From assembly GCA_019359435.1 (NCBI GenBank), contig JAHHHI010000085.1, positions 1 to 64,000 on the forward strand: a stretch of 64,000 nucleotides of DNA, read 5' to 3'. This DNA is from Kaiparowitsia implicata GSE-PSE-MK54-09C (GTDB taxonomy: Bacteria > Cyanobacteriota > Cyanobacteriia > Elainellales > Elainellaceae). The notes under the pieces were generated by a model. The model saw only the letters and a list, made by a program, of their open reading frames with translations. It made no database searches and had not been told where the DNA came from. Positions 25,118 through 41,696 of the stretch are shown one piece after another. Every line of letters begins with the position of its first letter. Within the stretch, counting starts at the first letter, position 1. The position numbers and the translations under genes are program-made.

Positions 25118-25123
25118 CGGGGG

Positions 25124-25381: not shown

Positions 25382-25404
25382 GGTAAAAATCCTTGGCTCG
25401 ATCC

Positions 25405-25448: not shown

Positions 25449-25488
25449 TGGAGCGGTCCTCGCCCCGGCGGGCGGAGCGAGGGCGCGA

Positions 25489-25887: not shown

Positions 25888-25902
25888 CGGTTCGTCCTCC
25901 TT

Positions 25903-26250: not shown

Positions 26251-26326
26251 CCGAAGGGCCGCGCCCAACCTTTATTGATCTGGAAACAGATTGCGCCTAT
26301 ATTCCATACATGGAATGTCATTGCTG

Positions 26327-26689
26327 ATGAGCTGGGATGTCGAAATCACTGATGAGTTCGGAGAATGGTTCAGCGATCTCGGGCACGCCGATCAGGACGC
26401 GATCGACTTCACCGTCGATCTGCTGATCGCCGAAGGACCGAAGCTGCGTTTTCCCCATTCGTCGGGGATCAGCAATTCGCGGCACTCGCACATGCGCGAG
26501 CTGCGAACCCAGAGCGGAGGCAGGCCGCTGCGGATCTTCTACGCTTTCGATCCGCGCCGGTCGGCGATTCTGCTCATCGGCGGTGACAAGACCGGGGACG
26601 ACCGTTTCTACGAGCGGATGATCCCGGTCGCGGATGATCTTTACGACGTCTATTTGCAGGAATTGAAACAAGAAGGATTGATAAAATGA
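26327..26689 (+). CDS. higB: HigB/Gp49-like (DUF891) toxin
   Basis: 120 residues from the ATG at 26327; in-frame starts at 26291 (TTG) and 26315 are possible but would place the gene in the promoter. It has the RelE/HigB DUF891 pattern: an N-terminal VEITDEFGEWFSDL, the core SHMRELRTQSGGRPLRIFYAF, and ILLIGGDKTGDDRFYE. This family cleaves mRNA on the ribosome. It overlaps the antitoxin start by 4 bp (ATGA), the toxin-first order typical of higBA. It faces rightward, away from the structured element B. Confidence 0.82.
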   Translation: MSWDVEITDEFGEWFSDLGHADQDAIDFTVDLLIAEGPKLRFPHSSGISNSRHSHMRELRTQSGGRPLRIFYAFDPRRSAILLIGGDKTGDDRFYERMIPVADDLYDVYLQELKQEGLIK

Positions 26690-27009
26690 GCGGACATCGC
26701 CCGTTTTCCGACCTCAAGAAGGACTGGAGCGCCGAGCGCCGCGCCAAGAACGCGGCCCGCAAGGCCGAAATGGCGGCCGAGCTAGTCAGCCTCGAACAGT
26801 TGCGCGAGGGGTTAGGCATCAGCCAGGAGGAGTTGGCGAACGTCCTCGACGTGCAGCAGCCAGCCATCTCGAAGCTGGTGCGCCGACCCGACATGAAGGT
26901 GAGCACGCTACGCGAGTTGATCGCGGCGATGGGCGGAGAGCTGCACATCACCGCGACCTTCGCCGGCCGTTCGGTCGAGATCGACAATTTCAAGTCGGCC
27001 GCTGCGTGA
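26686..27009 (+). CDS. higA: HigA-like XRE-family antitoxin
   Basis: 107 residues. A Lys/Arg/Ala-rich N-terminal helix (residues about 8-30) is followed by a Cro/CI HTH with LGISQEELANVLDVQQPAISKL and then VSTLRELIAAMGGELHITATF, the usual XRE antitoxin ending. It should neutralise HigB and repress its own operon. Overlap with higB by 4 bp indicates coupled translation. Together they form a plasmid-stabilising pair. Confidence 0.85.
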   Translation: MSGHRPFSDLKKDWSAERRAKNAARKAEMAAELVSLEQLREGLGISQEELANVLDVQQPAISKLVRRPDMKVSTLRELIAAMGGELHITATFAGRSVEIDNFKSAAA

Positions 27010-27283
27010 ACGAGCGTGGTTGCTCGCGTCGCCGAGCGAATCCGCCTGCACCTTTGACGAGTGGAAGCGCTACCCGCAGCAAGTCGGACAATCCGTCTGC
27101 GCTGACGCTGCTTGTCCGTGACGGGCAGTACGCCACACTGGCGACGCCTTCGCCCTAACTATCGCTCATTTGCGACATACTGCTCGCAAAAGCTCTTGAG
27201 ATTGGGGCTGAAGCGATTTCGTGCAATCAAGCTTCCAGAATTGGCAGAAGCATCCGGTCGCGACCTTGCCCTGTCCGGCGCTT

Positions 27284-27820
27284 TCACCGCCAGACTCTAG
27301 CCAATCCCATCGACACGAGATGGTCGCCTGCATCGTTGCCGCGGACGGTTAGCGTTGCCAGCGTGCGCCCGTAGCGATCGGTGCCGTTGCGCGAGATGAC
27401 AACCGGCCCGTCCGCGAGAAAGGAAGCCAGTTCGTCGCGGCTGCGCTCAGCTAAAGCGTAGTCGCACCAACCCTGCCGGCGAGGATCTTCGCATTTCGGG
27501 CTTCCCGACATTTCCGGGGCGTCAATATTCTCGATGCGAACCCGCTCGCCCTCGCATGTACGGATCGTATCTCCATCGTGGACATTCGCGATGCACAATG
27601 CAGGCGTCGCATAGGTGACGGCGTTAGTACTCGCCAAGCCGGACCATCCTGGCCCCATCCAATAACTGGCGCCAAGGCCGAGCCCACCGCCAGCGAAAAG
27701 GCCAACAATGATGATCGCTGCCGTGCCCGGTCCCTTCTTTGCTCGTCGGGACGCGGGACCGGAGCGGGTTCGATGCCCCCGGAATTGCAGCACGTTATTA
27801 GCACCCCGCCTCTTGCGCAT
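27284..27820 (-). CDS. Staphylococcal-nuclease-like (thermonuclease) protein, membrane anchored
   Basis: 178 residues. After a basic N-terminus there is one hydrophobic segment (residues about 30-52, AAIIIVGLFAGGGLGLGASYW) and then an SNase domain. The catalytic positions are present: VHDGDTI, RVRIENIDAPE (Arg, Asp, Glu of the active site) and DRYGRTLATL. This suggests an active Ca-dependent phosphodiesterase facing the periplasm. It ends MGLARVWR, as in many short SNase-domain proteins. A second, more divergent SNase gene lies at 34778-35377. Such genes are frequent on alphaproteobacterial conjugative plasmids; role unproven. Confidence 0.8.
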   Translation of the reverse strand: MRKRRGANNVLQFRGHRTRSGPASRRAKKGPGTAAIIIVGLFAGGGLGLGASYWMGPGWSGLASTNAVTYATPALCIANVHDGDTIRTCEGERVRIENIDAPEMSGSPKCEDPRRQGWCDYALAERSRDELASFLADGPVVISRNGTDRYGRTLATLTVRGNDAGDHLVSMGLARVWR

Positions 27821-27979
27821 TGTGCTCGTATCGGCGGCGAAACTTCACCGCGCAAGCTCAATTCAGAGGGGCCATGGTATGATGCTCATCTGCGGATTCG
27901 AAATGCGGCCCTTGATCTGAAATCACCGGAGGACCAAGCTTCCCTGTCGCTTGTTCCATATTTGTTCTAACAAGCGGAC

Positions 27980-28342
27980 ATGCGAATCGACCGGATCACC
28001 CACATTGCCATGCGCGTCCTCTACGACGCAGCGGCCCGGGCGAAATGCGGCGAGGTTGAGCGAACATGGGGGCACCGCCTCGCGCTGGAATGGATGGTGC
28101 AAAAGGGCATTGCGGAGCCGTGGCAAGCGGCGGACTTCTGGGACGCCCTCGCGATCCAGTGGGACACTCACCAATACGAGCACACCGCCGGGTACGTTCA
28201 AGTCACCCGGCTCATGGGTGCGCTGACCAACTGGAGCTATCGGTTAGGCCTCGAACCGCTTGGCCCGATCGAAATGGGCCGGCTCGCGCACCCATATCTG
28301 GCGGACCTTGAATTCGACTGCGGAACACAGCAGCTTCCCTGC
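27980..28342 (+). other. In-frame 121-codon extension or gene fused to the SRAP gene
   Basis: From an ATG at 27980 the frame runs without stop into the SRAP gene at 28343. The encoded stretch looks coding (regular codon use, MRIDRITHIAMRVLYDAAAR, then aromatic-rich helices) and resembles small plasmid proteins of unknown function that normally stand alone. The ribosome site before 27980 is weak (AAGCGG). Either two genes have fused by loss of a stop, or ribosomes start again at 28343. Confidence 0.5.
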
Positions 28343-29029
28343 ATGTGCAACCGCTACAGGCCTGGTGAACGCCACCGCATCGAGGATCACTTCTCGGCCC
28401 GTCGCCTCCGTGAGTTCAACGAAGGCCCTGCGATCGTGCATCCACGCGAACCGGGCTGGGTGGTGCGTCAGGGCGACGGCCAGCGCATTCTCGAACACAT
28501 GACGTGGGGCTTTCCGGTCTATCTGCGGGGCAAGTCAGGACAACCCCTCAAGGTCAAGCCCACCAACAATGCCCGCTTCGACAAGCTGGGCGCCTATTGG
28601 AAACAGTGGGCAATGTTCCCCAAGAACCGTTGCCTCATTCCCGCCGCGGCCTACGCCGAAGCGGTCGGCCCCGCCGGCGCAATGATGACCACATGGCTTT
28701 CCGTGAAGGATAGTCCCGTATTCGCGTGGGCAGGGCTGTGGCGCGAAAGCGATGAGTGGGGCCTATGCTACACCGGCGTCATGACCGATAACGCGCCTGA
28801 GCTGGCATCAATTCATGATCGCTCGCCGGTCATCCTCGATCCCCAAGATTGGGATACCTGGCTCAATGCACCGTTGGACGACCTGTATAGCTTCGATCGA
28901 CCGTTCCCGGCCGATCGAATCGCCGTAAAGCGAACAAGCGTGCTCTGGAAAAATGGGGGCAGAGCCGACCAATTCGCCGACATTCCAGGCGAGCATCAAC
29001 CAGCGCCCCAAAGTCCCGCGAACGAATAA
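28343..29029 (+). CDS. SOS-response-associated (SRAP/YedK/HMCES) protein
   Basis: 228 residues counted from MCNRYRPG. SRAP proteins use Cys2, exposed after Met removal, to form a covalent thiazolidine link with abasic sites in single-stranded DNA, shielding them. The other active-site regions are visible: PTNNARFD (Asn), the Glu in AAAYAEAV, and HDRSPVIL (His). Only a start at 28343 places the Cys at position 2, yet no clear ribosome binding site precedes it and the frame is open 121 codons upstream. Proteolytic release of Cys from the longer protein is another option. On a conjugative plasmid this protein may protect incoming single strands. Confidence 0.8.
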   Translation: MCNRYRPGERHRIEDHFSARRLREFNEGPAIVHPREPGWVVRQGDGQRILEHMTWGFPVYLRGKSGQPLKVKPTNNARFDKLGAYWKQWAMFPKNRCLIPAAAYAEAVGPAGAMMTTWLSVKDSPVFAWAGLWRESDEWGLCYTGVMTDNAPELASIHDRSPVILDPQDWDTWLNAPLDDLYSFDRPFPADRIAVKRTSVLWKNGGRADQFADIPGEHQPAPQSPANE

Positions 29030-29112
29030 CGCCTAGCGGAAAGCTCGCTGCGCAAAATTTACAGGTCCAGCTCCTGCTGCCGAAACTCAGCGGGTTCGTC
29101 GCCCTCGTTTCC

Positions 29113-29460
29113 TTACCAAAGGATCTTGTCGCCCTTCCAGATGGTCACAAATCCGCGCCCGGAGTGGTCAGGCCTGGGGTCGGCCATTCGCTCGAAATTG
29201 TAGCAACGACTGCGGCCCATCGTACCCGAAAAGCTTAAAGGGCCTCCAAGGCGGTGCATGACGCGGTGGCAAGCGCCGCTCGGCTCCTTGACCCGTCGAC
29301 CATACCCGCCCTTCCACGCCCGATAGTCCGATTCCTCTCGCTCGCTGGGCTGGGTCCAGTGCTGGCAACGGACGCAAGCAGCATCATAGGGTAGGGGCGG
29401 GTTTGCCGCCGCTGGGCGGTCATCGTCCAGCGGCGGCCCGTTATTGTGGCCGATGCTCAC
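29113..29460 (-). CDS. Hypothetical protein with paired cysteines (115 aa)
   Basis: 115 residues starting MSIGHNNGPPLDDD, an N-terminus seen in several small alphaproteobacterial plasmid and phage proteins. Four Cys are spread over the protein (CVRCQHW, GACHRV, RCYNFE), which could bind a metal. No domain recognised. The start overlaps the end of the next upstream gene by 4 bp, so it is the last gene of a three-gene leftward set. Confidence 0.55.
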   Translation of the reverse strand: MSIGHNNGPPLDDDRPAAANPPLPYDAACVRCQHWTQPSEREESDYRAWKGGYGRRVKEPSGACHRVMHRLGGPLSFSGTMGRSRCYNFERMADPRPDHSGRGFVTIWKGDKILW

Positions 29461-29810
29461 GCCGCACTCTCACCCTCGGCCAGCTCGCGGCGCGCGTTAC
29501 GCTTAGCCAAAACGCGAATTGCGGCCCGTGTCGAAGACAAGTCGGGATGGCCGGCGGCGATCTGCTCGAGCGTGGGGCGTGACGGCGCGACGATGGCACC
29601 GGCCTCAATCTGCACACGGTAGAGTAGGGCAGTCCGCCCGGCCTCGACCAAGAGGCGGCGCGTCTCAGCGTCATACCAACGCCGGAAACGCTTGGTCGGC
29701 GGCGCTGAGCGCAGACCGGCATGAATATGGCTACGCGCGTCGGCCATCGTCACCAATCCGCGCGCGCGGGCAAAAGCCGCAAGGCTTTGAACAATGGGGA
29801 CGGCGCTCAT
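29457..29810 (-). CDS. Hypothetical protein (117 aa)
   Basis: 117 residues, Ala/Arg-rich and mostly helical, starting MSAVPIVQSLAAFARARGL. It has no motif I recognise. It overlaps both neighbours by 4 bp (29457-29460 and 29807-29810), so it is translated with them and is very likely real. Confidence 0.6.
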   Translation of the reverse strand: MSAVPIVQSLAAFARARGLVTMADARSHIHAGLRSAPPTKRFRRWYDAETRRLLVEAGRTALLYRVQIEAGAIVAPSRPTLEQIAAGHPDLSSTRAAIRVLAKRNARRELAEGESAA

Positions 29811-30097
29811 GGCTGCGGCTCCCGCGCGTCGCCGCGCACGATCTGGAAGCCCGCGCGCGCCAGCTCGTCACACAGCGCCCGCTTGCGCTCGATCCCTTCG
29901 CCTTTGCTGGCGATATAGGCGGAACGGCCATGATGAAATTCGAACCCGGCGCGTTTCAGACAACCGCGAAACCGCTGGTGGGTGCGCTCGCTCCAATCAA
30001 AGGTGCCCGCATAATTGCGGAAAGCGGCGACGGCATAGACGGAGCCGTAATTTTCATTACGCCAGCTAAGTTCGATTTTCGGGGGATTCTTGGGCAT
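29807..30097 (-). CDS. Hypothetical protein (96 aa)
   Basis: 96 residues from the ATG at 30097 (MPKNPPKIELSWRNENYG). The in-frame extension further upstream enters the space behind ardC and looks non-coding. The protein is basic with the pattern FDWSERTHQRFRGCLKRAGFEFHHGRSAY, suggestive of a small DNA-binding or winged fold, but I cannot assign a family. It follows ardC by 56 bp on the same strand and is the first of three overlapping small genes. Confidence 0.6.
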   Translation of the reverse strand: MPKNPPKIELSWRNENYGSVYAVAAFRNYAGTFDWSERTHQRFRGCLKRAGFEFHHGRSAYIASKGEGIERKRALCDELARAGFQIVRGDAREPQP

Positions 30098-30153
30098 CGG
30101 TCGATCCTTCGGAAACGGGTACGGGGCGGCGCTGATGGCCGCCCTTGATCTGG

Positions 30154-31092
30154 TCAGGCAGCGCGAGCCATGACGGGCGCGCCCATGAGGGACAGGATCC
30201 ATTCGCTTGCCGCTTGCGCGGCGGTCGCGGCCCGGAAGATGGCGCGTTTGTCGTTGCGGAGCGCCCCGATCCAACTTGAGACGTAAGCGGCGTGGTCCTC
30301 GCGCTCGGTCGGTTCCATGCCAAGCTGCGCGCAAAGCATCGCTGCGCCAATTTCAGCTATGAGCTCTTCGGCGGCCCTGATTTCCTTTGATTTTCCATAT
30401 TGATAGAGCGTTTCGCGGTTAAGCCGGGACGTGTGCCCGCTGCTGTGCACTACCTCGTGCGCGAGGGTCGCATAGAAGGCATTGCCGCTCACGAAATCCG
30501 CGAAGGCGGGCATCGTGATGCTGTCCAAAATCGGGTGATAATAGGCGCTGTTGCCGCCTTCACGGTACGGGACCTGATAGCGGGCAAAGGTTGCGTCAAG
30601 TCCCGGATCGCGCTGGTCACGGTTCTTTAACGCGATCTGCGGCGCGGGATATTTGGCAATGTCGAGGCTGTCGATCTGCTCGACATTGAACACGACATAT
30701 TTCTTCAGATAGCTGCGGGTCCGGTCCTCCTCGCCACCACCGCTCGGCTGCTCCTCGGCCTCCGCATCCTTGGGGGTGAAGATTCCGGCATGAACAACAA
30801 GATTGCCCTTCTCGCCCTTCCTGACCTGTCCGCCCAACTCGCTCGCTTGCCGGTAAGTCATCCAATAGGGGTTGCTATAACCGCGCGCCATCGCGGCGGA
30901 CCAAAGGAGGAGAATATTGATCCCGCGATAGGCGGTGCCCTCGTGCCGCAGGGGAAGCGATGCCGCGCCGCTTGCCCATGACGGGGTCCAAGGCCGGGTG
31001 CCTGCTTCCAGCATGGCGACGATCTGGTTGGTCACTTCCTCGTAAATGTCGATCCGGTGAGGTTTGGCGCTACGGGCTGCGGTGCGGGCCAT
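30154..31092 (-). CDS. ardC: ArdC-type antirestriction protein
   Basis: 312 residues. The N-terminal ~130 residues match the ArdC/DUF1738 single-stranded-DNA-binding domain (IYEEVTNQIVAMLEAGTRPW, YRGINILLLW, YWMTYRQA, VRKGEKG). The C-terminal half is a zincin-like metallopeptidase with HEVVHSSGH (residues 212-220, HExxH metal motif). ArdC proteins protect the incoming plasmid strand from host restriction. Its presence on a plasmid that also carries BREX is notable. It is leftward, preceded by a 455-bp stretch containing a structured element of the A/B type, and is followed by three small coupled genes. Confidence 0.87.
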   Translation of the reverse strand: MARTAARSAKPHRIDIYEEVTNQIVAMLEAGTRPWTPSWASGAASLPLRHEGTAYRGINILLLWSAAMARGYSNPYWMTYRQASELGGQVRKGEKGNLVVHAGIFTPKDAEAEEQPSGGGEEDRTRSYLKKYVVFNVEQIDSLDIAKYPAPQIALKNRDQRDPGLDATFARYQVPYREGGNSAYYHPILDSITMPAFADFVSGNAFYATLAHEVVHSSGHTSRLNRETLYQYGKSKEIRAAEELIAEIGAAMLCAQLGMEPTEREDHAAYVSSWIGALRNDKRAIFRAATAAQAASEWILSLMGAPVMARAA

Positions 31093-31547
31093 GTCTTTGT
31101 TTCCCTTCCTAAATGGAGTTGAAGGCGATGGGTGCCATCGGCTTCTGCCCGCTGGCGAAGCGGGTCGGGGAATGGCGCAAATCAGGGCCGGTCAGCGGGG
31201 AGGGGGATCACCCGGCCTGCACGGAACGTGGGTGAAGGAAGGGCGGGGAAACCCCGCTGATCGCCAAGCGAGGCCGAGAGGCCGAGACGGTCCAGCCCTT
31301 GCGCCAGGGGGCCGGAACAGGCCCCGGAAACGAACCGGTTAACGCCGACGGCCATCGCCGTCGCCATGCCCCGCGCGAGCGATCGAAACCCGGATGGGCC
31401 GAGACGGATTGCGGCTCGGTCGGAACCGCCAGGTGCAGATAGAGCGCGGTCCCGAACGGGACGCGCTATCCTTGTCGCCTTGTCAGAATAGGTTTGACAG
31501 CATCGTTCGCCGCACAAATATTTCGGCCACCGGGGGGATGGACTTTA
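31093..31547 (-). ncRNA. Candidate structured leader, copy C, upstream of ardC
   Basis: 455 bp without a gene between ardC and the divergent DUF3644 gene. + strand coordinates: hairpin 1 CCCGCT 31148-31153 with AGCGGG 31159-31164 around the same GGCGA loop as copies A and B but with different stem bases; hairpin 4 GCGGCTC 31411-31417 with GAACCGC 31423-31429, which pairs fully on the leftward strand if G-U is allowed; then a long stem AGCGC..GTCCC with GGGACGCGCT at about 31441-31465 with one bulged base. The loop identity and changed but pairing stems support a conserved leader on the leftward transcript or on the single strand. Confidence 0.5.
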
Positions 31548-32753
31548 ATGCCAGGAAGGAAAAAAGGACATCATCTGGAGCGTTGGGAAGTCGCGCTCGT
31601 AAAGGCCATGCTCGCAACCCAGAAATATAACGACCAGGACGTGCTTGCCTATTTCACCCGTCCGACCCGGACCATCAATCATCGGCTGATTTCCGAGATA
31701 CGGTCCGATAAGAAACACAAGGCCATAAAGGCAGCCAACCCCGACCAGCTTACCGAGTTTCTGCAAAACTGGCCTGACCTCGACGGTGAAACCGGCCTCA
31801 GCGTGCGCGGAGACGAGCTGCTGATAAAGGCGCGGGAGGCAATGATCGCCGCGGTTCATAATTTCAATGCGGCGGGACTGACGTTCCGATCCGAGATTTT
31901 CATCACCACCGCCATGATCGCATGGACCTATCTGTGTCACGCATGGTTCAAACGCGAAGGCATCGACTATCGCTACAAGGAAAATGGCGCGGTCAAGAAG
32001 CTCGCCAGCGGCGCCGACGCCTATTGGGAACTGGGCAAATGCGTCCGCAACAACAAGCTTCCGATCACCAAGGGCGTGCGGCAGAATCTCGAACTGTTGC
32101 TGGAGATCCGGCACGAGATCGAACATCGCTCGACGGACCGGATCGACAATGCGCTAGGGTCGCTGATGCAGGCGTGCTGCATCAATTTCAACGAGGCCCT
32201 GCGCATGTGGTTCGGCGAACAATTCGGCCTGGAGCGGCGCTTGCCAATTGCGCTCCAGTTCGTAACTTTCAACGCCGCCCAGGCCGCGGGGCTAAAAAAG
32301 GCTTCGGCACTGCCGTCCACCATCGCCGCGAGAATGGATGCCTTCCATGCAGCAATGAGCGACGATGAGCTTCGTGACCCGGCATTCTCCTACCGGGTTG
32401 CCTTCGTACCGAAGGTGGGCAGCAAGGCCAGCAAATCCGATCTGGCTGTCGAGTTCATCAAACCCGATTCAGCCGAGGGTAAGGCGATCAATTCGGTGTT
32501 GCTCAAGGAGGTCGACAAGGCGCGCTACACCGCAAGCCAAATTATCAAGGCTATGCAGGATGATGGATTTCCCCGGTTCAACCAGGCCCACCATACGGCC
32601 TTGTGGAAGGAGCTGGACGCCAAAGACCCGGAAAAGGGCTTTGGCCGCGAAGGTGACTATAGCGGCACCTGGGTCTGGTTCGACAGTTGGATCGCCCGCG
32701 TGAAAGCGCATTGTCAGGAAAACGCTGCAAAATATGTCGGTGGAGCTGAATAA
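31548..32753 (+). CDS. DUF3644-domain protein
   Basis: 401 residues from the ATG at 31548 (MPGRKKGHHLERWEVALVKAML). The upstream in-frame start at 31494 would read through a promoter-like region. The N-terminal ~60 residues resemble a small HTH-like segment (YNDQDVLAYFTRPTRTINHR), followed by the DUF3644 region with WTYLCHAWFKREGIDYRY and LLLEIRHEIEHRS, whose R-x-E-I-E-H pattern recalls HEPN-like helical folds. Function of DUF3644 is unknown. It occurs near defence genes in various genomes. Here it is followed by a gene fragment and then the nucleotidyltransferase pair, on the same strand. Confidence 0.75.
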   Translation: MPGRKKGHHLERWEVALVKAMLATQKYNDQDVLAYFTRPTRTINHRLISEIRSDKKHKAIKAANPDQLTEFLQNWPDLDGETGLSVRGDELLIKAREAMIAAVHNFNAAGLTFRSEIFITTAMIAWTYLCHAWFKREGIDYRYKENGAVKKLASGADAYWELGKCVRNNKLPITKGVRQNLELLLEIRHEIEHRSTDRIDNALGSLMQACCINFNEALRMWFGEQFGLERRLPIALQFVTFNAAQAAGLKKASALPSTIAARMDAFHAAMSDDELRDPAFSYRVAFVPKVGSKASKSDLAVEFIKPDSAEGKAINSVLLKEVDKARYTASQIIKAMQDDGFPRFNQAHHTALWKELDAKDPEKGFGREGDYSGTWVWFDSWIARVKAHCQENAAKYVGGAE

Positions 32754-32762
32754 CTCCGCTGC

Positions 32763-32891
32763 GCTTGCCCAATTGTCGATGAGTATCCGAACCTGGCCGC
32801 CTACGTCGCACGCGGCCAAGCACGGCCCGCTTACAAGCGCGCTTTCGACGCTCAGTTATCGGTCTTCACCAGCGCCTCATCAACCGCCTGA
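32763..32891 (+). pseudogene. C-terminal fragment of a glutathione S-transferase
   Basis: A frame ending in TGA at 32889-32891 reads EYPNLAAYVARGQARPAYK, then a QLSVF segment. This is the typical tail of bacterial glutathione S-transferases (conserved YPNLAAYxARGxARPAYxRA). Nothing of the N-terminal thioredoxin-like half or the rest of the helical domain is present upstream, where the DUF3644 gene ends at 32753. It is a remnant, probably of chromosomal origin, left by recombination, and marks a junction between DUF3644 and the following pair. Confidence 0.75.
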
Positions 32892-33051
32892 TGATCGTCT
32901 GCTTCGCGCAACATTGCCGCCGCTCAGTGGATCAGGCGGCGATCCTGAAACCGGCCATTCATTTAGCCACGGCACCGCTCAGGCAAAGTTTTGCGGATTG
33001 CGGCTGTCCGGTCTGCTTGTACATTTGGTGCCGCGCCATATTGTCCCCACC

Positions 33052-33813
33052 ATGGTAGGGATCGACGAACATCTGCGCGCGGTATTAGCAAGACATCGGG
33101 TAGACACCGGCCTCTTTTCGCCCGTGCGCAGCGTCCAGCCATTGATCGAGCCGGTCATCCGCAAGTGGGGTGGCCCATTCATCGTCGATATCCGCACGAG
33201 CGGTTCGTTCGCAAAGGGAACCGCAGTGCATGGCGGCACGGACATCGACCTCTTCGTCTCGCTGACATCGACGCTGACCGACACTTTGCAGCAGATCTCG
33301 GACACCCTTTTCAACGCCTTTTCCCAGGCCGGCTATGCGACGCGCCGTCAGAATGTTTCGATCGGATTGACGGTCAATGGCTGGAAAGTCGATGTAACGC
33401 CGAGCAGGCGGCAAGATCAGCGCGGGAATTATCACAGTCTTTGGAGCACCAAAACGGCTAGCTGGTTGCAGACGAACATCAGCGAACACATTCGGGTGGT
33501 GTCCAACTCTGGGCGTCTCGACGAAATTCGTCTGATCAAAATCTGGCGCAATCGCTTTGGCATCGACTGGCAATCGTTCTATCTTGAGCTTTTCGTACTC
33601 GATGCGCTCCGAGGTGCCCGGGTCGGCAATGTCCAGGAGAACGTCGTTACCGTGTTTCGAGCTATTACGACCTCGCTTGCCACCAAACGGCTCATCGACC
33701 CGGCGAACACCAACAATGTCGTCTCGAATGTGCTGACGGCGCAGGGCAAGTCCGCTGTGATGAAAAGTGCGCAGTCCGCCCTTGAGAGCCCATGGAACGT
33801 CGTGTTTCAATGA
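33052..33813 (+). CDS. OAS/CD-NTase-like nucleotidyltransferase
   Basis: 253 residues from the ATG at 33052; further upstream the same frame crosses the GST fragment region and is not credible. No strong ribosome binding site is seen. The polymerase-beta fold signature GSFAKGT (Gly51-Ser52) is followed by TDIDLFV (Asp64, Asp66), and a third acidic residue sits in WKVDVTPS (Asp114). The C-terminal RLIKIWRNRFGI..FYLELFVLDAL resembles the helical half of 2'-5'-oligoadenylate synthases and bacterial CD-NTases. All three metal ligands are intact, so it may make a nucleotide second messenger. It overlaps the next gene, a nuclease-like protein, by 4 bp, as signalling enzymes overlap effectors in CBASS. 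The link to CBASS is inference. Confidence 0.78.
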   Translation: MVGIDEHLRAVLARHRVDTGLFSPVRSVQPLIEPVIRKWGGPFIVDIRTSGSFAKGTAVHGGTDIDLFVSLTSTLTDTLQQISDTLFNAFSQAGYATRRQNVSIGLTVNGWKVDVTPSRRQDQRGNYHSLWSTKTASWLQTNISEHIRVVSNSGRLDEIRLIKIWRNRFGIDWQSFYLELFVLDALRGARVGNVQENVVTVFRAITTSLATKRLIDPANTNNVVSNVLTAQGKSAVMKSAQSALESPWNVVFQ

Positions 33814-34523
33814 CGTCTGAATGGTCCCTCGCGGCGTTGTTCGCCGACTTCCATGAGAAGATCCAAAGCGAGCTGGCAACAGCGCGTAAGCTGGGCCATC
33901 CTACCGACAAGGGCGACGCGAGCGAGCAGGTCTGGATCGATGTCCTGACCCATTATCTGCCGCGCAGATATGAGGCTCGCAAAGGGTTCGTTGTCGATAG
34001 CCGGGGTGACTTCAGCCAGCAAATCGACGTGATCATCCACGACCGCCAATATTCTCCTTTCGTGTTCACGTTTAAGGGGACCGACGTCGTGCCGGCGGAG
34101 AGCGTCTATGCGGTGTTTGAAGCGAAGCAGGAGTTGACAGGGGATTATATCCAATATGCCGGTGAGAAGGCGGCATCGGTGCGCCGATTGCACCGCACAA
34201 GCCTAGCTGCCGAGACGATCCACGGGCCTTCCCGCGCGAAACCGCTCCACCACATTCTCGCCGGCATCGTGACATTGAGCGCGGCTTGGAAGCCCCCTCT
34301 GGGTGATACCCTGGTCGGTCATCTTGAGCGCGACTTGGGGGACGGCGTGCTCGATGTCGGATGCATTGCCGATGCGGGCTGGTTTACCCGGCGCGCCGAC
34401 CAGTTCGATCTACACGCGGTCGACAAGGCCGCGACCCGCTTTCTGTTTGAGCTGATAGCCCAGCTTCAGAGGATAGGCACCGCACCGATGCTCGACATTA
34501 GGGCCTATGCGGGAATGATCTGA
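33810..34523 (+). CDS. DUF6602 protein with PD-(D/E)XK nuclease-like motif
   Basis: 237 residues from the ATG at 33810 that overlaps the upstream stop (ATGA); the ATG at 33792 is also in frame. The N-terminal half has the spacing of a restriction-endonuclease-like fold: Glu39 in GDASEQVW, Asp73 in QQIDVIIHD, and Glu104-x-Lys106 in YAVFEAKQEL. I recognise the DUF6602 style. The C-terminal half, with HHILAGIVTLSAAW, is unassigned. A metal-dependent nuclease activity is predicted. Coupled translation with the nucleotidyltransferase suggests the two work as enzyme and effector. Confidence 0.72.
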   Translation: MTSEWSLAALFADFHEKIQSELATARKLGHPTDKGDASEQVWIDVLTHYLPRRYEARKGFVVDSRGDFSQQIDVIIHDRQYSPFVFTFKGTDVVPAESVYAVFEAKQELTGDYIQYAGEKAASVRRLHRTSLAAETIHGPSRAKPLHHILAGIVTLSAAWKPPLGDTLVGHLERDLGDGVLDVGCIADAGWFTRRADQFDLHAVDKAATRFLFELIAQLQRIGTAPMLDIRAYAGMI

Positions 34524-34777
34524 CGGGGAAATGAAGAATTGATGTGTCCCAACTGAGCGGTTCTGAAACTGCGCAGACGGCCGCTTTATGCTTGGCGACA
34601 CCAGAAGCTGCCAGTCAGCAAAGCGGCATTTTGTCATAAAACGAACGGTCGATCGGGCCGATCGGCTCCCCCCGCCCCGTTAGTCGATCGTCACCCGCAT
34701 GGGCGGAAACTCGTGGTGGGGTTCCGTGAAGCGCCAGAGCGGGGCGGAATAGAGCGCGGGCCGAAGGCAACGGTATC
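34524..34777. other. Convergent intergenic region, possible degenerate copy of the hairpin element
   Basis: 254 bp between two genes that end facing each other. From about 34729 to 34775 the order GTTCCG, CGCCAGAGCGG, AATAGAGCGCGG, CCGAAGGC, GGTATCC parallels the 3' part of copies B and C (CGGTCGGA, CCGCCAGG, GATAGAGC, CCGAACGGG, CTATCC). The match is weaker than between the other copies. I see no gene. Confidence 0.3.
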
Positions 34778-35377
34778 CTATTCCCTGGCTGAATTGGCCT
34801 CACATCCCTTCGGCAATGTCGCCCGCTCAATCGCCAGTTGGCGCATCCCTTCATAGTCCTGGCCCCACAGACCAAGCCGTTGCTCTGCTGCTCGTTGCAT
34901 CAGCTTCACATAGGCACCGCCCGAATATCTTCGGTAGTCCACGGCATAGCCCTGGGCCACCATCGTCGCTGCCACACTCGCTTCGTTCGCCTTGAAACGG
35001 CATGACAGGTTCAGCCTGCCATAGCTCGTCGCCGGACTGCGGCACTGCTTCTCCCGCCTCAACGCAAAATCGAACAGGCTCGTGGCACATTCTACCCCGC
35101 CATCCCGGTCGACCAACCCCTGCATCGTCAGCGTCGAAAGCTGCTTCAACCGCAGCCGATCGTCATCCGGCGCGTCGATCCCCACAATCCGGATCCGCGA
35201 CCCCGACACCTCGAGCGTATCACCGTCCACGACACGCGGCTTTGGATCATTGAGCCGCAGCGAGGTGATCCGCGCGACCTGCTCCTTCTGCTGCGCCAGG
35301 GCATAGACGGACACCGCCCCGAACATCACCGCGATTATGACGCGCTGGTGATTTGGCAGCCCCGGAAACAGCTTCAT
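34778..35377 (-). CDS. Secreted or membrane-anchored SNase-like protein
   Basis: 199 residues with an N-terminal hydrophobic segment (residues about 13-28, VIIAVMFGAVSVYALA) that could be a signal or anchor, then a thermonuclease-like domain: VVDGDTLEV, SRIRIVGIDAPD and YGRLNLSCRF. The residue after AP is Asp where active SNases have Glu, a conservative change at the general-base position, so activity may be reduced. Its start overlaps the stop of the toprim gene by 4 bp, forming a two-gene leftward operon. Paralogous in type to 27284-27820 but not closely similar. Confidence 0.72.
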   Translation of the reverse strand: MKLFPGLPNHQRVIIAVMFGAVSVYALAQQKEQVARITSLRLNDPKPRVVDGDTLEVSGSRIRIVGIDAPDDDRLRLKQLSTLTMQGLVDRDGGVECATSLFDFALRREKQCRSPATSYGRLNLSCRFKANEASVAATMVAQGYAVDYRRYSGGAYVKLMQRAAEQRLGLWGQDYEGMRQLAIERATLPKGCEANSARE

Positions 35378-36258
35378 TGCGCGCGGACCTCGCGCAGAAG
35401 GTCATTCCAGTCGCCGGCATGAGGCGGCAGCTTCACGCTGAGCTGACGGTCATTGGCTGTCAGGTGAGGCGCCGCACGCTCGACAGCGCGCGCCGCCTCG
35501 GCCCCATGCTGGCTGTAGATGATGATCGTGTGGATGCTCTCAGGAATAGTGAGGGTCTGGTATCGCTCGATCCCCAGCACCGGCCAGACATACGTTTCCG
35601 GCTCAAGCATGTTCATCACACTGGCAGCTTCCTCGACCCCTTCCGCAAGACGCAGGATGCCTGTCGAGGGGATGCCGCCCCAGCGCACCGCCCCGCCGCC
35701 GGGGTTGCCCAACATCCGCTTGGGCTTGGTGATCTCGGCCTTATCGGTGCCATCGGCGCGCAGGAAAGTGCGATGGATGGCGACGACGCCCGCGTCTTCT
35801 TCGACGGGTACGATCAGCGCTGGCGCAAACGCCTTTTCTTCACCGGCGCCAAACTGACAGCGCGCGTCAAAGCGAGCGTTGATGCCGACAGGGATGATGG
35901 CACGCGTGCGCAGATAGCGTTCAGCCAGGCTGCCAGTGAAGGGGTCGGCAAATCGCCATATCGACAGGGCAAGCTTGTTGAAGTCGCCCTTCCTTCCCTC
36001 ATGGCGCTGACCTGGATCATGATCGCGCGCGACCGAGAAGGTGCCGGTCCGCAGCGCATCAACGATCGCGTCGGAAGTGCAGCCCGCGAAGCAATGAAAC
36101 AGGATGGCGCGCCGCCCCACGCGCACCGAAAGGCTGGGATCGCCATCGGCATGGGCTGGGCACCGGCACATGGCGTAATCGCCCTGCCATTTGCCGCCGA
36201 GCTGTCGCACAATGCGATCGGCATCGCGGGCAACGGCGTCAGGATCGCGTCCGCTCAC
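35374..36258 (-). CDS. Primase/Toprim-like plasmid protein with Zn finger (DUF7146 type)
   Basis: 294 residues. The N-terminus has a CHC2-like zinc-binding pattern (CRCPAHADGDPSLSV, then FHCFAGCTSDAIVDAL), as in plasmid and phage primases. The Toprim region follows from ~residue 180: LAEGVEEAASVMNM with the conserved Glu, then TIIIYSQHGAEAARAVERA where a functional Toprim would carry a D-x-D pair. Those Asp residues are replaced by Ser-Gln, so catalytic ability is doubtful. Such proteins are frequent beside T4SS genes of alphaproteobacterial plasmids. It may bind single-stranded DNA without priming. Confidence 0.75.
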   Translation of the reverse strand: MSGRDPDAVARDADRIVRQLGGKWQGDYAMCRCPAHADGDPSLSVRVGRRAILFHCFAGCTSDAIVDALRTGTFSVARDHDPGQRHEGRKGDFNKLALSIWRFADPFTGSLAERYLRTRAIIPVGINARFDARCQFGAGEEKAFAPALIVPVEEDAGVVAIHRTFLRADGTDKAEITKPKRMLGNPGGGAVRWGGIPSTGILRLAEGVEEAASVMNMLEPETYVWPVLGIERYQTLTIPESIHTIIIYSQHGAEAARAVERAAPHLTANDRQLSVKLPPHAGDWNDLLREVRAQ

Positions 36259-36323
36259 TGGACCTCCTCTCTCTTGCCACTTACTCTATGGCTAATCGAA
36301 ATGACACCAAATAACCAGCGAAA

Positions 36324-36641
36324 ATGATCGAAATCGCTAAATGGGGGAAAATGGAACTTGAACTGATCCTGGAGCGCGAGCTGACATCACAGCGTCCCGT
36401 CGCCGGCACCATCACCGATGTCCAGGTGCATCAGCGCGAGGATGACGGCAAGTGGTACATCAATGTCCGCGTGAGCTGGCGCGGATCGACACCCTATCAT
36501 GTCGCGCTCTATGACAAGAAGAGAATCCGCTTATATTCAAAGGTTTCCTCGGCTATCCGGCATATCGTGGCGGCCTATGGTTACAGTTCTGTAATCGGCG
36601 TCAACCCATCGCCCCTTTGGAACAACCCATCCCGTTTCTGA
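36324..36641 (+). CDS. Hypothetical protein (105 aa)
   Basis: 105 residues from 36324. The in-frame ATG at 36351 (MELELILERELTS, 96 aa) is preceded by GGGGGAAA and may be the true start. The middle (VQVHQREDDGKWYINVRVSWRG) looks like a small beta-rich fold. No family recognised. It lies between the divergent primase-like gene and the T4SS operon, 106 bp upstream of the first T4SS gene. Confidence 0.5.
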   Translation: MIEIAKWGKMELELILERELTSQRPVAGTITDVQVHQREDDGKWYINVRVSWRGSTPYHVALYDKKRIRLYSKVSSAIRHIVAAYGYSSVIGVNPSPLWNNPSRF

Positions 36642-36747
36642 CGTAGAATAGAGGGCGAAACGGGGAAAACCCGTTATTGCGAGTCCTTCGCAGTCTAGGC
36701 AGAGTCACAAAAGCGATTTAGAGTGTTTTCCCTAGAGAGGTGAAAAC

Positions 36748-37125
36748 ATGCGAAATCGCTTGTCACTTTCGATCCCGGCATTCGCGTTTCTGCTGGCATC
36801 GGCAACGCCATCCTCGGCACGGGCCGCTGACAGCACATGGGCTTGTGAAGTGCTGTTGTGCGCCAGCAATCCCGGGGGCTGGATGCAATATGCCCAGTGC
36901 GTCCCGCCGATCCGCAAGTTGTTGCGACACCTCGCGTTGGGCGGCGGTTTTCCGACCTGCTCCGCAGGTGGCGTCGCCGCCGCAAAATATACCAAGCCGA
37001 AATATGGTCGTCCTGGCTTCGTGGTGATGACCATGCGTGACGGGAGCCGCACCACCTACACGGTCCCGACCGAAGCCGACGCGGCGCAGGCGGAGGCCAC
37101 TGCCATACCGGGGGGAGTGCAGTAA
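36748..37125 (+). CDS. TrbM/KikA-like conjugal transfer protein
   Basis: 125 residues with a clear signal peptide (residues 1-26, cleavage after SARA). The mature part has CEVLLCASNPGG, CVPPIRKLL and FPTC, the Cys spacing of the TrbM/KikA/MpfK family, periplasmic accessory factors of IncP and IncN transfer systems. A ribosome site GAGAGGTG precedes it. It shares one base with the virB1 start (AATG overlap at 37125), placing it first in the transfer operon. The family call is moderate because the C-terminus (repeated Ala/Glu) is unusual. Confidence 0.65.
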   Translation: MRNRLSLSIPAFAFLLASATPSSARAADSTWACEVLLCASNPGGWMQYAQCVPPIRKLLRHLALGGGFPTCSAGGVAAAKYTKPKYGRPGFVVMTMRDGSRTTYTVPTEADAAQAEATAIPGGVQ

Positions 37126-37805
37126 TGCAGTTCACCACGGCAGCGATCCTCGGCCTTGCGGCGCAATGTGCATCGGGCGTGGCTCCTTCCACGATCGCCG
37201 CCGTCGTGCATACCGAGAGCAAGGGCTATCAGTTCGCACTCAACGTCAACGGCGTCGCCCGCCAACCAACGCGGCCGACCAATGCCGTCAATGCCGCGCG
37301 CGTCGCGCGAAGCTACATCGCGCAGGGCTATTCGGTGGATCTCGGCCTCGGCCAGATCAACTCCAACAACATGTCCGCGTTGGGCCTGACATGGGACAGC
37401 GTGTTCGATCCCTGCACGAACATCGGCGCTGCCGGAAAGGTGCTCGCGGGCAACTATCATCAGGTCCGCGGCGGAAGGATGCCGCAAGAGGCGCTTAGGG
37501 TCGCCCTGTCCATGTACAATACCGGCTCGAGAACGCGGGGTTTTCGCAATGGCTATGTCGGCCGCGTGCTGAACAATGCCGGCGTGTCCGACAGGATCGC
37601 TCCTGTTGCCTATGTGCCCCCTGCCCCGCCTGGACAAGAGGATGCAGCGGGCAAGCCGCCAGCCACAATGCTGGCTGATCTGGTCGCGGAGAACATGCCC
37701 CAAGCCAATCCTGCGCGGGCAGCATCACCACCACCCCCGGCTTGGGATGTCTTCTCCCGGGCCGCTTACGAGCGTGCGCGGAGCGCCAAAACAGGAGGAA
37801 GCTGA
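37125..37805 (+). CDS. virB1: VirB1-like lytic transglycosylase
   Basis: 226 residues with an SLT-type lysozyme fold: VHTESKGYQFALNVNG with the catalytic Glu, DLGLGQINSNNMSAL, and ALSMYNTGSRTRGF. VirB1 opens the peptidoglycan for T4SS assembly. The C-terminal ~60 residues are Pro/Ala-rich and disordered. No obvious Sec signal is seen beyond the hydrophobic start (FTTAAILGLAAQC). It overlaps virB2 by one base. Confidence 0.85.
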   Translation: MQFTTAAILGLAAQCASGVAPSTIAAVVHTESKGYQFALNVNGVARQPTRPTNAVNAARVARSYIAQGYSVDLGLGQINSNNMSALGLTWDSVFDPCTNIGAAGKVLAGNYHQVRGGRMPQEALRVALSMYNTGSRTRGFRNGYVGRVLNNAGVSDRIAPVAYVPPAPPGQEDAAGKPPATMLADLVAENMPQANPARAASPPPPAWDVFSRAAYERARSAKTGGS

Positions 37806-38182
37806 TGAAGTCACACGCATCCATGGACAAGCCGGCGAAATCCGCGCGATCGACAGTTCAACGCCATGTGGCGGCGCTGTCGCCGCGCCAGCGCAAGACG
37901 GCGGCGATCGCCGTCACCGTTGCCGTAGCGGGACTTGCCTCGCTCGTTTCACCGGACCCGGCATTTGCCCAATCCGCCAATCTGGAGGGGTTCGCCAACA
38001 ATGTGCTGGGCCTGCTCAGCAACGGCTTGCTCCGCGCCATCGCGGTCATCGCCGTCATTGTCGCTGGCGCGGGATGGTTGATGGGCCGGGTCAACACGGG
38101 CGCACTGGTGACGGTCATCATCGGCATCGCGATCATCTTCTCGGCACCGTGGATCGTGGACCAGATCGCAGGCTCGGCCTGA
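37805..38182 (+). CDS. virB2: VirB2/TrbC-type major pilin
   Basis: 125 residues from the ATG at 37805. A long basic leader (residues 1-30) precedes a signal segment ending SPDPAFAQSA, then two hydrophobic helices (about 73-93 and 98-117) with a short polar turn GRVNTG, as in TrbC/VirB2 prepilins that are cleaved and inserted in the membrane before pilus assembly. Ends IVDQIAGSA. It is followed by a GC-rich 65-bp gap before virB3. Confidence 0.85.
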   Translation: MKSHASMDKPAKSARSTVQRHVAALSPRQRKTAAIAVTVAVAGLASLVSPDPAFAQSANLEGFANNVLGLLSNGLLRAIAVIAVIVAGAGWLMGRVNTGALVTVIIGIAIIFSAPWIVDQIAGSA

Positions 38183-38247
38183 CGAACAGGCGGCCCGACA
38201 CCGCGTCGGGCCGTCACTTTTTAACGCAGGCAGGCAGGCAGGTAGAT

Positions 38248-38589
38248 ATGGCCGAGAGAGAAGAGATAGCGCGCAACACGCTGTTCCTTGCGGTGACGCG
38301 GCCAGCCCTGTGGGGGGGCATCCCGATCGAAGCGGCAGTGCCCATCCTGCTGGTATCGGCCTGTGTCCTGATTGGCACCAACAATCCCGTCTATGCGCTC
38401 GTCACGGCAGCGGTTTGCTACGGCCTTGCCCGCCTTGTGGTGCGTCAGGATGTCAACGCTTTTCGGCTGATGTTCCTGTTCTTCCGCACCAAGGCGGCAA
38501 ACCGCAATCGCACCTTCTGGGGTGGGTCGAGCTACACGCCCCTCCCCCTCAAAGGCATTGCCCGCAAGGGCTTCGGTCGCCGTGGCTAG
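38248..38589 (+). CDS. virB3: VirB3-type inner-membrane protein
   Basis: 113 residues from ATG 38248. A short polar start is followed by a hydrophobic pair of segments (about residues 25-60, VPILLVSACVLIGTN and VYALVTAAVCYGLARL), then RQDVNAFRLMFLFFRTK, the usual VirB3 pattern. VirB3 anchors the VirB4 ATPase at the membrane. Its stop overlaps the GTG of virB4 by 8 bp. Confidence 0.85.
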   Translation: MAEREEIARNTLFLAVTRPALWGGIPIEAAVPILLVSACVLIGTNNPVYALVTAAVCYGLARLVVRQDVNAFRLMFLFFRTKAANRNRTFWGGSSYTPLPLKGIARKGFGRRG

Positions 38590-40972
38590 AGCGGACCGCC
38601 TTTCGGCCCAGGTGCCGATGAAGGTCGCGCTCAAGGAAGTGCTGCCCACCAAGTTCCTGCCCTATGCGCGGCACATCAATGACGAGATGATCGTTCTCGA
38701 TTCCGGCGCGATCATGCTGACATTCGAGTTGCAGGGCCGCGCCTTCGAGACAGCCGACGTCCGCGATCTCAATGACTGGCATTCCAAGCTCAACGGGATG
38801 CTCCGCAATCTGCACGACGATCGCCTGTCGATCTGGACGCATCTGGTCAGGGCGCGGGTCGAGCAATATCCCGGCGGCAATTTCCGGTCGAAATTCGCCC
38901 GCGATCTCGATGCCGCCTATTTCGCGCGCATCAACCGCGAGCGGATGTTCATCAACCGCTTCTTCGTCACCCTCCTTGCGCGCCCTGCGGTGCATGGCGC
39001 GGACAAGCTGGTTCATCTGTTCCGGTCCAAGGCCAAGGTCGAGTCGGCGGCCGATGCGGTGGATGAGAATCTGATCGAGTTCCTTGAGGACAAGGCCCGC
39101 GACTTCGAGAAGCTGATGGCGCGCTGCGAGCCGCGCCGCCTCGCAATCTATGGCCATAACGGCCTCAAATTCTCCGAACCGCTCGAAGTCGCCGAAATGG
39201 TGATGACGGGGCGCCACCGGCGTGTGCCGATCATCCGCGGCCATCTTGGCAGCGCCCTGTACCGGCAACGCGTCATTTTCGGCGGCGAGACGGTTGAGGT
39301 TCGCGATGCCGACCGCAGCTCGTTCGGCGGCATATTTGGTATCCGCGAGTATCCGGCCTTCACCACGCCCCGCCAGTTTGAATCCCTGCTGGCTGTCGAT
39401 TTCGGCTTCGTTCTCACGCAATCGTTCACCTTCCTGAGCCGCGCCACGGCGGCCGAGCGGTTCCGCTTGCGGCAACGGCAGATGGAGAATGCCGACGATC
39501 GGGCCATCAGCCAGATGCATGATCTGGTCGATGCGGCGGACGACCTCATGTCGAACCGCTTCGTGCTGGGCGATCATCATTTCACGCTCGCGGTCTATGG
39601 CGGGAGCCTGAAATCGCTGCGCGACCATATGTCGATCGCGCGCGCCGCGCTGGCCGATACGGGCATGGTCGCGGCGCGGGAGGGGGCGGCGCTGGAAGCG
39701 GCCTATTGGAGCCAGCTCGTTGGCAATTTCGCGTGGCGGGCGCGCCCCGCACCGATCACGTCGCTCAACTTCGCCGCCTTTGCGCCCTTCCACACCTATC
39801 CCGCTGGCCGCGCCGCCGGCAACCATTGGGGCGACGCCATCGCGCTTCTCAAGACGAGCGCGCGCAGCCCCTATTTCTTCAGCTTCCACAAGCGCGACGT
39901 CGGGCACACGATGGTCATCGGTCCGACAGGCGGCGGCAAGACGGTGCTGCTCAACTTCCTGATGGCGCAGGCCGAAAAGACAGGTTCGCGTCAGATCTTC
40001 ATCGACAAGGATCGCGGCGCGCAGATTTTCGTGTTGGCGAGCGGAGGTGCCTATCTCACGCTTGAGAACGGCACGCCCACTGGCTTCGCCCCGTTGAAGG
40101 CGCTGGCCGATACGGCTGAGGATCGGGCCTGGCTGTCGCTATGGGTCCGCCAGCTCGTCCGTGCAGAAGGGCGGCCGATCACAGTGCAGGAGGAAAGGCG
40201 CATCGATGATGGCATTGCCGCCGTCATGAAGCTTCCGCCGGCAGCGCGCTCCCTCGATGCCCTGCGCACCATGCTCGGCATGGCAGACGAGGGCGGAGTT
40301 GGCGCGAGGCTGGAAAAATGGACCTCGCGCGGCGCGCTGGGATGGGCGTTCGATAACGCGCAAGACGAAATGACACTCGATGCCCGGTTCATCGGGTTCG
40401 ACATGACGGACTTCCTCGACAACGCCGATATCCGCGCCCCATTGATGCTCTACCTGTTCCACCGGATCGACAAGATGTTGACCGGCGAGCGCACCATGAT
40501 CGTGATCGACGAGTTCTGGAAGGCGCTCGGGGACAATGCGTTTCGCAGCTTCGCCCAGGACGGGTTGAAGACATACCGCAAGCGCAATGCGCTGATGGTG
40601 TTCGCCACCCAATCCCCTGGCGACGCGCTCAAGAGTGATATCAGCCACTCCATATTGGAACAGGTGGCGACGAAGATCATGCTGCCCAATCCGAACGGGC
40701 AGCGCCGCGATTATATTGACGGCTTCTCCATGACGGATGCCGAATTCGCGCTGATCCGCGAGGAACTGTCGCAGGAATCGCACAAATTCCTCGTGAAGCA
40801 GGGGCATGACTCGGTCGTCGTGGAACTGGATCTGACCGGCCTCGACAACGAGCTGGCCGTTCTATCGGGCCGCGCGGAAACGACCGCGGTCGCCGCGCAA
40901 GTGATCGCCGAACATGGCCGCGATCCGGCTGTGTGGCTCCCCATCTTCCACCAGCGCCGACGTTCAAGTTGA
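38582..40972 (+). CDS. virB4: VirB4-type T4SS ATPase
   Basis: 796 residues from GTG at 38582 within the end of virB3; ATG at 38618 is an alternative, and the longer frame from 38522 would lie inside virB3. The N-terminal CagE/VirB4 domain precedes a RecA-like ATPase with Walker A GPTGGGKTVLLN and Walker B MIVIDEFWKAL, then FATQSPGDAL. VirB4 energises pilus biogenesis and substrate transfer at the inner membrane. Length is normal. Confidence 0.93.
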   Translation: MARADRLSAQVPMKVALKEVLPTKFLPYARHINDEMIVLDSGAIMLTFELQGRAFETADVRDLNDWHSKLNGMLRNLHDDRLSIWTHLVRARVEQYPGGNFRSKFARDLDAAYFARINRERMFINRFFVTLLARPAVHGADKLVHLFRSKAKVESAADAVDENLIEFLEDKARDFEKLMARCEPRRLAIYGHNGLKFSEPLEVAEMVMTGRHRRVPIIRGHLGSALYRQRVIFGGETVEVRDADRSSFGGIFGIREYPAFTTPRQFESLLAVDFGFVLTQSFTFLSRATAAERFRLRQRQMENADDRAISQMHDLVDAADDLMSNRFVLGDHHFTLAVYGGSLKSLRDHMSIARAALADTGMVAAREGAALEAAYWSQLVGNFAWRARPAPITSLNFAAFAPFHTYPAGRAAGNHWGDAIALLKTSARSPYFFSFHKRDVGHTMVIGPTGGGKTVLLNFLMAQAEKTGSRQIFIDKDRGAQIFVLASGGAYLTLENGTPTGFAPLKALADTAEDRAWLSLWVRQLVRAEGRPITVQEERRIDDGIAAVMKLPPAARSLDALRTMLGMADEGGVGARLEKWTSRGALGWAFDNAQDEMTLDARFIGFDMTDFLDNADIRAPLMLYLFHRIDKMLTGERTMIVIDEFWKALGDNAFRSFAQDGLKTYRKRNALMVFATQSPGDALKSDISHSILEQVATKIMLPNPNGQRRDYIDGFSMTDAEFALIREELSQESHKFLVKQGHDSVVVELDLTGLDNELAVLSGRAETTAVAAQVIAEHGRDPAVWLPIFHQRRRSS

Positions 40973-40985
40973 AAGGAGAACTCTC

Positions 40986-41696
40986 ATGAGCCCCAAGAAA
41001 CTTCGCTATTTCGTGATGGGAGCCTCGCTCCTGACCTGCATGGGTTCCGCGCACGCGCAGGGCATCCCTGTGACCGACACGCGCAGCTTGTTTCAGCAGC
41101 TTGAGCAAGTCCGCCAGGGCGTGTCGATGCTCGCGCAGGGGGCCGACCAGCTCCAACAGGCACGCGATCTCTATCGTGATCTCAACAAGGCGACGGATAT
41201 CGGGCGGGTCGCGGATAGCCTGCGCACCGACGCCATGCGCGAACTGAACGTGTCGTCGGGCAGCCTCGACGGTTACGCCAACGGCGATCTTAACGTGATC
41301 GGCCGCCTGCGTGGTCGCTCCGATGGCATCTATCAAGGATTGATGGGGCAACTTTCCCCCGACACCTCGGAAAGCGCGCGGGCAAGCTATGAGACGGGTG
41401 CCCGGCAAGCGGCCGTCACAGCCGGGCTTGCCGGGTCCGTGGGGGATTCGGTGACGAGCCGTCGCGAGGGCCTGGAGGAGCTGCGCTCGCGGCTCGCCAG
41501 CGCAAATTCGGCTGCCGAGCGGGCCGACATGAGCGCCCGCCTCCAGCTTGAACAGGCGCAGATGACAAATGACATGATGGCGCTGCAAGCCGTCGAGTTG
41601 CAGCGTCGCGCGAAGGCTGAGGCCGAATATCAAGGCTATCTGACACTTCAGCAGCGCGAGAGCGCAAAATTCCGTCGGCAGATGGGCATCGACTGA
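40986..41696 (+). CDS. virB5: VirB5-like minor pilin
   Basis: 236 residues with a signal peptide (cleavage after GSAHAQ) and a long helical coiled body (LFQQLEQVRQGVSMLAQGADQLQQ) typical of VirB5/TrbJ proteins that cap the pilus. A clear ribosome site AGGAGAA precedes the ATG at 40986. Ends SAKFRRQMGID. Its stop shares one base with the start of the lipoprotein gene. Confidence 0.82.
   Translation: MSPKKLRYFVMGASLLTCMGSAHAQGIPVTDTRSLFQQLEQVRQGVSMLAQGADQLQQARDLYRDLNKATDIGRVADSLRTDAMRELNVSSGSLDGYANGDLNVIGRLRGRSDGIYQGLMGQLSPDTSESARASYETGARQAAVTAGLAGSVGDSVTSRREGLEELRSRLASANSAAERADMSARLQLEQAQMTNDMMALQAVELQRRAKAEAEYQGYLTLQQRESAKFRRQMGID

Follow-up and report, generated by a model that had tools for sequence, protein, structure and literature searches.

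In the definition given in PMC9122588, a type I CBASS system consists of a cyclase and an effector only; a passage of the same source names NucC among the effectors of CapW-linked CBASS, with no type given there. Trimers of NucC that have bound cAAA are reported to pair into active hexamers (PMC10419184), and the NucC of Vibrio metoecus is described as half-activated at about 0.1 nM cA3 (PMC8682760). According to PMC13424991, clade C/D cyclases that carry a small first residue (Ser/Thr) in the XGSX motif and a His in Lid 2 make 3'3'3'-cAAA. Viral RNA is presented as the trigger of a type I cyclase other than the one described here (PMC11153139). A literature search, with most subscription papers outside its scope, found no paper on a minimal type I pair containing NucC, and a search on DUF6602 found none either.

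The window, which is the whole 64,000-nucleotide stretch of DNA analysed here, contains a cyclase gene (gene 1) joined to an effector gene (gene 2) and lying downstream of a DUF3644 gene (Table 1). These two genes very probably form a two-gene CBASS of type I, in which the cyclase would act on NucC through cA3, with DUF3644 as separate cargo. Gene 2 has an alternative in-frame start at 33792 that is also open; the start in the table is preferred, since it yields the residue numbering of an earlier note on this DNA and matches E. coli NucC. The cyclase has a longer in-frame start at 32734, and DNA homology to seven relatives spans from 33001-33060 at the start to 34510-34531 at the end, so that the tabulated cyclase start is the likely one. 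The stretch from 32700 to the cyclase start yielded no promoter-like site, and the window contains no tRNA and nothing that Rfam reports at gathering scores.

Table 1. Features of the window referred to in the text.
Feature	Position	Strand	Details
WYL/WCX-domain regulator gene	342-1325	-	opposite strand to BREX
BREX genes BrxA, BrxB, BrxC, PglX, PglZ, BrxL	8793-21311	+	PADLOC
ArdC-type anti-restriction protein gene, zincin domain	30154-31092	-	near defence genes
DUF3644 gene	31551-32753	+	Pfam 1e-51; ends 298 bp upstream of the cyclase
Glutathione S-transferase (GST) gene remnant	about 32772-32906		between DUF3644 and the cyclase; plasmid DNA search
Gene 1, CD-NTase (oligonucleotide cyclase), 253 aa	33052..33813	+	ATG 33052, stop ends 33813
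ATGA stop/start overlap, 4 bp, joining cyclase and NucC	33810..33813	+	sequence
Gene 2, NucC effector endonuclease (Pfam DUF6602), 237 aa	33810..34523	+	ATG 33810

Gene 2 is matched by the PADLOC model 'Endonuclease (NucC)' (PDLC00745) at 1e-93 and by the PDB sequences of NucC from E. coli, Vibrio and Serratia at 1e-74 to 2e-42, the best being 6p7o (1e-74). It is 54.9% identical over 99% to genes on plasmids, one of E. coli among them, whose annotation reads 'nucC: CBASS effector endonuclease NucC'. The Pfam model that hits the protein is PF20247 (DUF6602), and proteins annotated only as 'DUF6602' are now tied to NucC. The PD-(D/E)xK residues D73, E104 and K106 are present and aligned to the same positions of E. 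coli NucC, as is E39, and the three are kept in 85-86 of 87 aligned NucC members, the remainder being gaps. Residues R53, Y81 and T226, which we take to be the cA3 contacts in the pocket of E. coli NucC, are also found in the window protein and in 84-85 of the 87. At the positions of H136 and Y141, presumably gate-loop residues of the E. coli enzyme, the window NucC has Thr and Ser, and its ligand fit may differ because of these changes. Both positions vary within the family (H136 is kept in 40/87 members, Y141 in 27/87, and both in all 7 type III NucC rows), and they are therefore not taken as defining NucC. Phage records contain two partial NucC matches only, at 28.6% identity over 46%.

Gene 1 retains the residues G51-S52, D64, D66 and D114 of the active site. 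Counting the window, 88-89 of 90 aligned cyclases share them; the departures are L083, a truncated copy with a gap, and the Calothrix locus L009, with altered residues. The PADLOC oligonucleotide-cyclase model PDLC00803 matches residues 5-252 of 253 at 2e-82, and PADLOC CBASS models thus cover both proteins over nearly their full length. Pfam SMODS matches at 3e-7, and the nearest solved sequence is that of E. coli CdnC (4e-5). Scores against the NCBIfam CBASS cyclase equivalogs NF041116 and NF041117 (58.5 and 53.2 bits) lie below the curated cut-off of 200 bits, so gene 1 is a CD-NTase outside these two subfamilies. An AlphaFold2 model built from 37 sequences (pLDDT 92.4, pTM 0.88) was aligned by VIA-align with P. 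aeruginosa CdnD at Z 23.9 (246 residues, 2.6 A), with E. coli CdnC at Z 21.9 (253 residues, 3.3 A) and with human cGAS at Z 20.3, and Foldseek placed E. coli CdnC at the top, followed by P. aeruginosa CdnD. As modelled, gene 1 is grouped with CdnD/CdnC by HMM and fold comparison.

The earlier note had described the intact nucleotidyltransferase site of the first gene, the residues Glu39, Asp73 and Glu104-x-Lys106 of the second, the 4 bp overlap, and the link of a CD-NTase with an effector that is a nuclease; all of these stand. Its suggestion of an undescribed anti-phage system does not, because gene 2 is the known NucC by sequence and the pair is accordingly of the two-gene CBASS type. As far as can be judged from its sequence, the pair is a further example of a known CBASS kind and not a new system.

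The pairing is conserved among 89 related loci, which comprise the best 80 of 155 genome relatives, 8 plasmid loci and one viral contig; this cut among the genome relatives leaves distant ones under-sampled. In 86 of the 89 the cyclase is directly followed by NucC in the same orientation (78/80 genome, 7/8 plasmid and 1/1 viral contig loci). Co-occurrence by chance alone, which the earlier note had named as an outcome that would refute its reading, is not what was found: strong NucC matches, defined by an E-value below 1e-80, are rare, with 3/395 drawn same-order genomes carrying one besides the draw centre, yet NucC sits beside the cyclase in nearly all of the surveyed loci. The three loci without NucC are L061, whose contig stops 12 bases past the cyclase, L009 and L053. 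The Calothrix plasmid cyclase of L009 (5992-6735) carries D64E and D114N and is, by its sequence, possibly repurposed or dead. In L053 (2695-8765) a short cyclase lies beside a HORMA/TRIP13/CdnC set, NucC was not found in the locus, and a type II-like NucC locus (L171) is present in the same genome about 95 kb away.

An automatic rule with a limit of 300 bases recovers NucC in 85 of 90 loci (window included), its two extra losses being L013 and L046, in each of which the NucC ORF opens at a more upstream position. Broken-looking copies also occur: both genes of L002 are frame-split, L083 is cut short, and one ORF is shortened in L013 and one in L062. When the in-frame NucC start nearest -4 is chosen by script, 64 of 87 cyclase-NucC pairs (window included) have one at exactly -4, with the others ranging from -11 to +179. 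The protein distances of the two partners are correlated (Mantel r 0.83 for 82 pairs, from 82 of 90 sources, 8 being omitted for missing or short proteins); 0/999 permutations reached this value, with a mean of about 0 and a maximum of 0.20. Part of this co-divergence reflects simple linkage. The 80 genome loci are distributed over Pseudomonadota (62), Bacillota (10), Acidobacteriota (2), Melainabacteria (2) and one each in Cyanobacteriota (L011), Chlorobiota, Chloroflexota and an unplaced genome, the phylum labels being those deposited, as 29/80 genome titles are marked MAG. The cyanobacterial locus, filed under Tolypothrix, shares its plasmid backbone with the window and is probably likewise a contaminant.

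The best reading of the two genes is a chain that leads from a phage cue through the cyclase, cA3 and the NucC hexamer to cell death. Since no regulator gene is seen beside the cyclase, the infection cue would be sensed by the cyclase itself, which would then join ATP into 3'3'3'-cAAA. The residues on which this product is predicted are Ser50, Thr141 (Lid 1) and His146 (Lid 2), the two lid positions having been mapped through an ungapped alignment to B. cereus CdnD; S50 is kept in 88/90, T141 in 90/90 and H146 in 88/90 aligned cyclases. Binding of cA3 would pair NucC trimers into hexamers that cut dsDNA, and the resulting DNA destruction would kill the cell before phage release, as reported for homologues in both cases.

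The cyclase might make something other than cA3, either another trinucleotide or a linear molecule, to which the NucC of this clade would be tuned; this is unlikely, since the predictor residues agree with those of cA3 makers and the pocket residues named above are kept almost throughout the family, even if the gate loop differs from that of E. coli NucC in the window, varies among the relatives, and belongs to the partner of a distinct short cyclase clade with about 20% identity to CdnC/CdnD in structure alignments. That the two genes instead represent an MNT/HEPN-type toxin-antitoxin or an RNA-modifying nucleotidyltransferase pair, unrelated to CBASS, is extremely improbable. The signals in this direction are a Pfam NTP_transf_2 match just above its cut-off (21.3 vs 21), a weak match of the NCBIfam archaeal CCA nucleotidyltransferase (27.7 vs a cut-off of 281.3) and the CCA-adding enzymes in the Foldseek list, which appear from rank 27 on. 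CD-NTases, however, come first in each of the two fold rankings, aligned along the full model, and the partner is NucC and not a HEPN protein. A toxin-antitoxin or CCA-type identity is unsupported by profile, PDB sequence and fold searches; the earlier note had named placement with MNT-type toxins or CCA enzymes as an outcome that would refute its reading, and the fold comparisons rank CdnC and CdnD above CCA-adding enzymes.

A different question is whether the system includes a third gene. The DUF3644 gene, which the earlier note had thought might belong to the pair, is real, and its protein contains an RX4H motif (R187-H192) as found in HEPN proteins, the family to which DUF3644 is assigned in PMC3710099; PADLOC lists it as the phage-defence candidate PDC-S19, and its structure model is poor (pLDDT 53.9, 3 sequences). 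These features, and its place upstream on the same strand, would suit an extra effector of the cyclase and NucC, or a gene that regulates them, but such a three-gene system is very improbable. Within the flanks examined, DUF3644 is found in 0/89 related cyclase loci, and all five DUF3644 loci examined are without cyclase or NucC. Among plasmid records, 23 have the cyclase and 21 have DUF3644, and in the 3 that share both the genes are about 200 kb apart. None of the seven relatives matches the DUF3644 gene, their homology beginning at the boundary given above, and a GST-gene remnant separates this gene from the pair. The remnant is 77-80% identical to plasmid DNA among the best 10 of 94 records, 4 of those 10 being annotated as glutathione S-transferase, and the spacer at 32781-32885 has no Pfam match. 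The survey, the plasmid records, the remnant and the homology boundary lead to rejection of DUF3644 as a third component, and its staying with the pair, which the earlier note had proposed to check, is not borne out. It is probably a stand-alone HEPN-type defence gene and separate cargo. Relatives of DUF3644 were seen on roseobacter and rhizobial plasmids and on two viral contigs.

The genomic setting of the two-gene CBASS is a plasmid of sphingomonad type, rich in defence genes; the window resembles sphingomonad conjugative plasmids and includes VirB-type transfer genes at about 38 to 49 kb. The BREX genes upstream make up what we take to be a complete-looking type 1 BREX set. The GC content of the window is 61%, vs 46-58% in nine short stretches of the assembly, whose one S12 gene has chloroplast S12 as its best PDB match and in which RecA gives one strong match. 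The cyclase is absent from the other 35 genomes of the assembly's family. The contig (C92 of G000) probably entered the cyanobacterial assembly as a contaminant from a co-cultured sphingomonad; genuine transfer of the plasmid contig into the cyanobacterium is also conceivable.

Assignment to a CBASS type depends on the genes near the pair. Profiles for HORMA and TRIP13, built from the type III loci L101-L107, and single-sequence searches with the Cap2/Cap3-like proteins of L165 gave no match in positions 25001-42000 of the window, which agrees with the remark in the earlier note that no Cap2/Cap3-type gene is present. The Prok-JAB matches of the whole assembly sit on other contigs (C84, C101). 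As no Cap2/Cap3 or HORMA/TRIP13 gene was found nearby, the pair is of type I under the definition quoted from PMC9122588. HORMA or TRIP13 profile matches occur in 7/89 relatives (L013, L026, L027, L032, L045, L053, L064), of which L032 and L053 also contain another cyclase and hence a second system beside the pair, and the single Cap2-like match among the 89 is weak (L070, 0.0011).

The distribution of NucC was followed in four genome draws of 396, 398 (L010, order then phylum), 398 (L078, phylum) and 390 (L049, order) genomes. Strong matches were found in 16 drawn genomes: the first draw yielded 3, the second added 4, the third gave none and the fourth 9; three draw centres are left out of this count because they were picked for carrying the pair. 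Matches of PDLC00745 between E 1e-15 and 1e-80 occur in 15 drawn genomes. Six of the 16 strong loci are of type III (L155, L156, L159, L162, L164, L169) and five have the two-gene layout (L157, L158, L160 with a split cyclase, L167, L170), of which at least L157, L158 and L170 are contigs equal in length to L030, L038 and L044 from the survey of 89 loci. Two resemble type II in carrying ThiF/JAB genes (L165, L166), and three have no cyclase match in the stretch examined (L161, at a contig end, L163 and L168). The ThiF/JAB domains are named by Pfam in L165 and by similarity in L166 and L171.

On a first NucC tree made by a quick method from 84 two-gene and 7 type III rows, the type III label requires 3 changes, 1 of them forced by starred branches. 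A second tree (81 two-gene, 13 type III and 6 other, with 11 loci named for omission) requires 6 changes, 4 of them forced. The direction of change is not given by these trees, in which the position of the root is arbitrary and long branches come together; the omissions from the second tree add to this. A broader and rather doubtful proposal is that the clade of ~253-aa cyclases, recorded from at least six phyla, might sense phage unaided and work with NucC alone, and that the regulator-free pair might be one of the main contexts of NucC and perhaps its oldest, systems with Cap2/Cap3 and HORMA/TRIP13 taking the effector by repeated swaps. The DNA-shredding NucC, whose solved CBASS partners are HORMA-held cyclases according to PDB titles, is widely found with a lone small cyclase, which must therefore hold its own trigger in check. 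With its two proteins, the pair is a clean system for seeking the activating phage cue.

In its two-gene layout without Cap2/Cap3 or HORMA/TRIP13 the window pair is like type I CBASS. Its cyclase shares the fold and active site of P. aeruginosa CdnD and E. coli CdnC at the identity of about 20% already noted, but these two were solved in complexes with HORMA proteins, as their PDB titles state, whereas gene 1 has no HORMA/TRIP13 beside it. Lid 1 Thr and Lid 2 His are common to gene 1 and the type III cyclases of L101-L107, which are longer (299-321 aa vs 253 aa). The effector is a full-length match to NucC of the E. coli MS115-1 CBASS (6p7o/6p7p) with the catalytic and presumed ligand residues kept, and the NucC proteins of Vibrio metoecus and Serratia (6uxf, 7zgv) are also among its closest known relatives. 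By contrast with these three, the window NucC has a different gate loop, a partner cyclase of another clade and no HORMA/TRIP13 beside it. The same effector is used in type III CBASS (L101-L107, L155 and others), together with HORMA/TRIP13 genes and other cyclases, and in type II-like CBASS (L165, L166, L171), together with ThiF/JAB (Cap2/Cap3-like) genes and, again, other cyclases.
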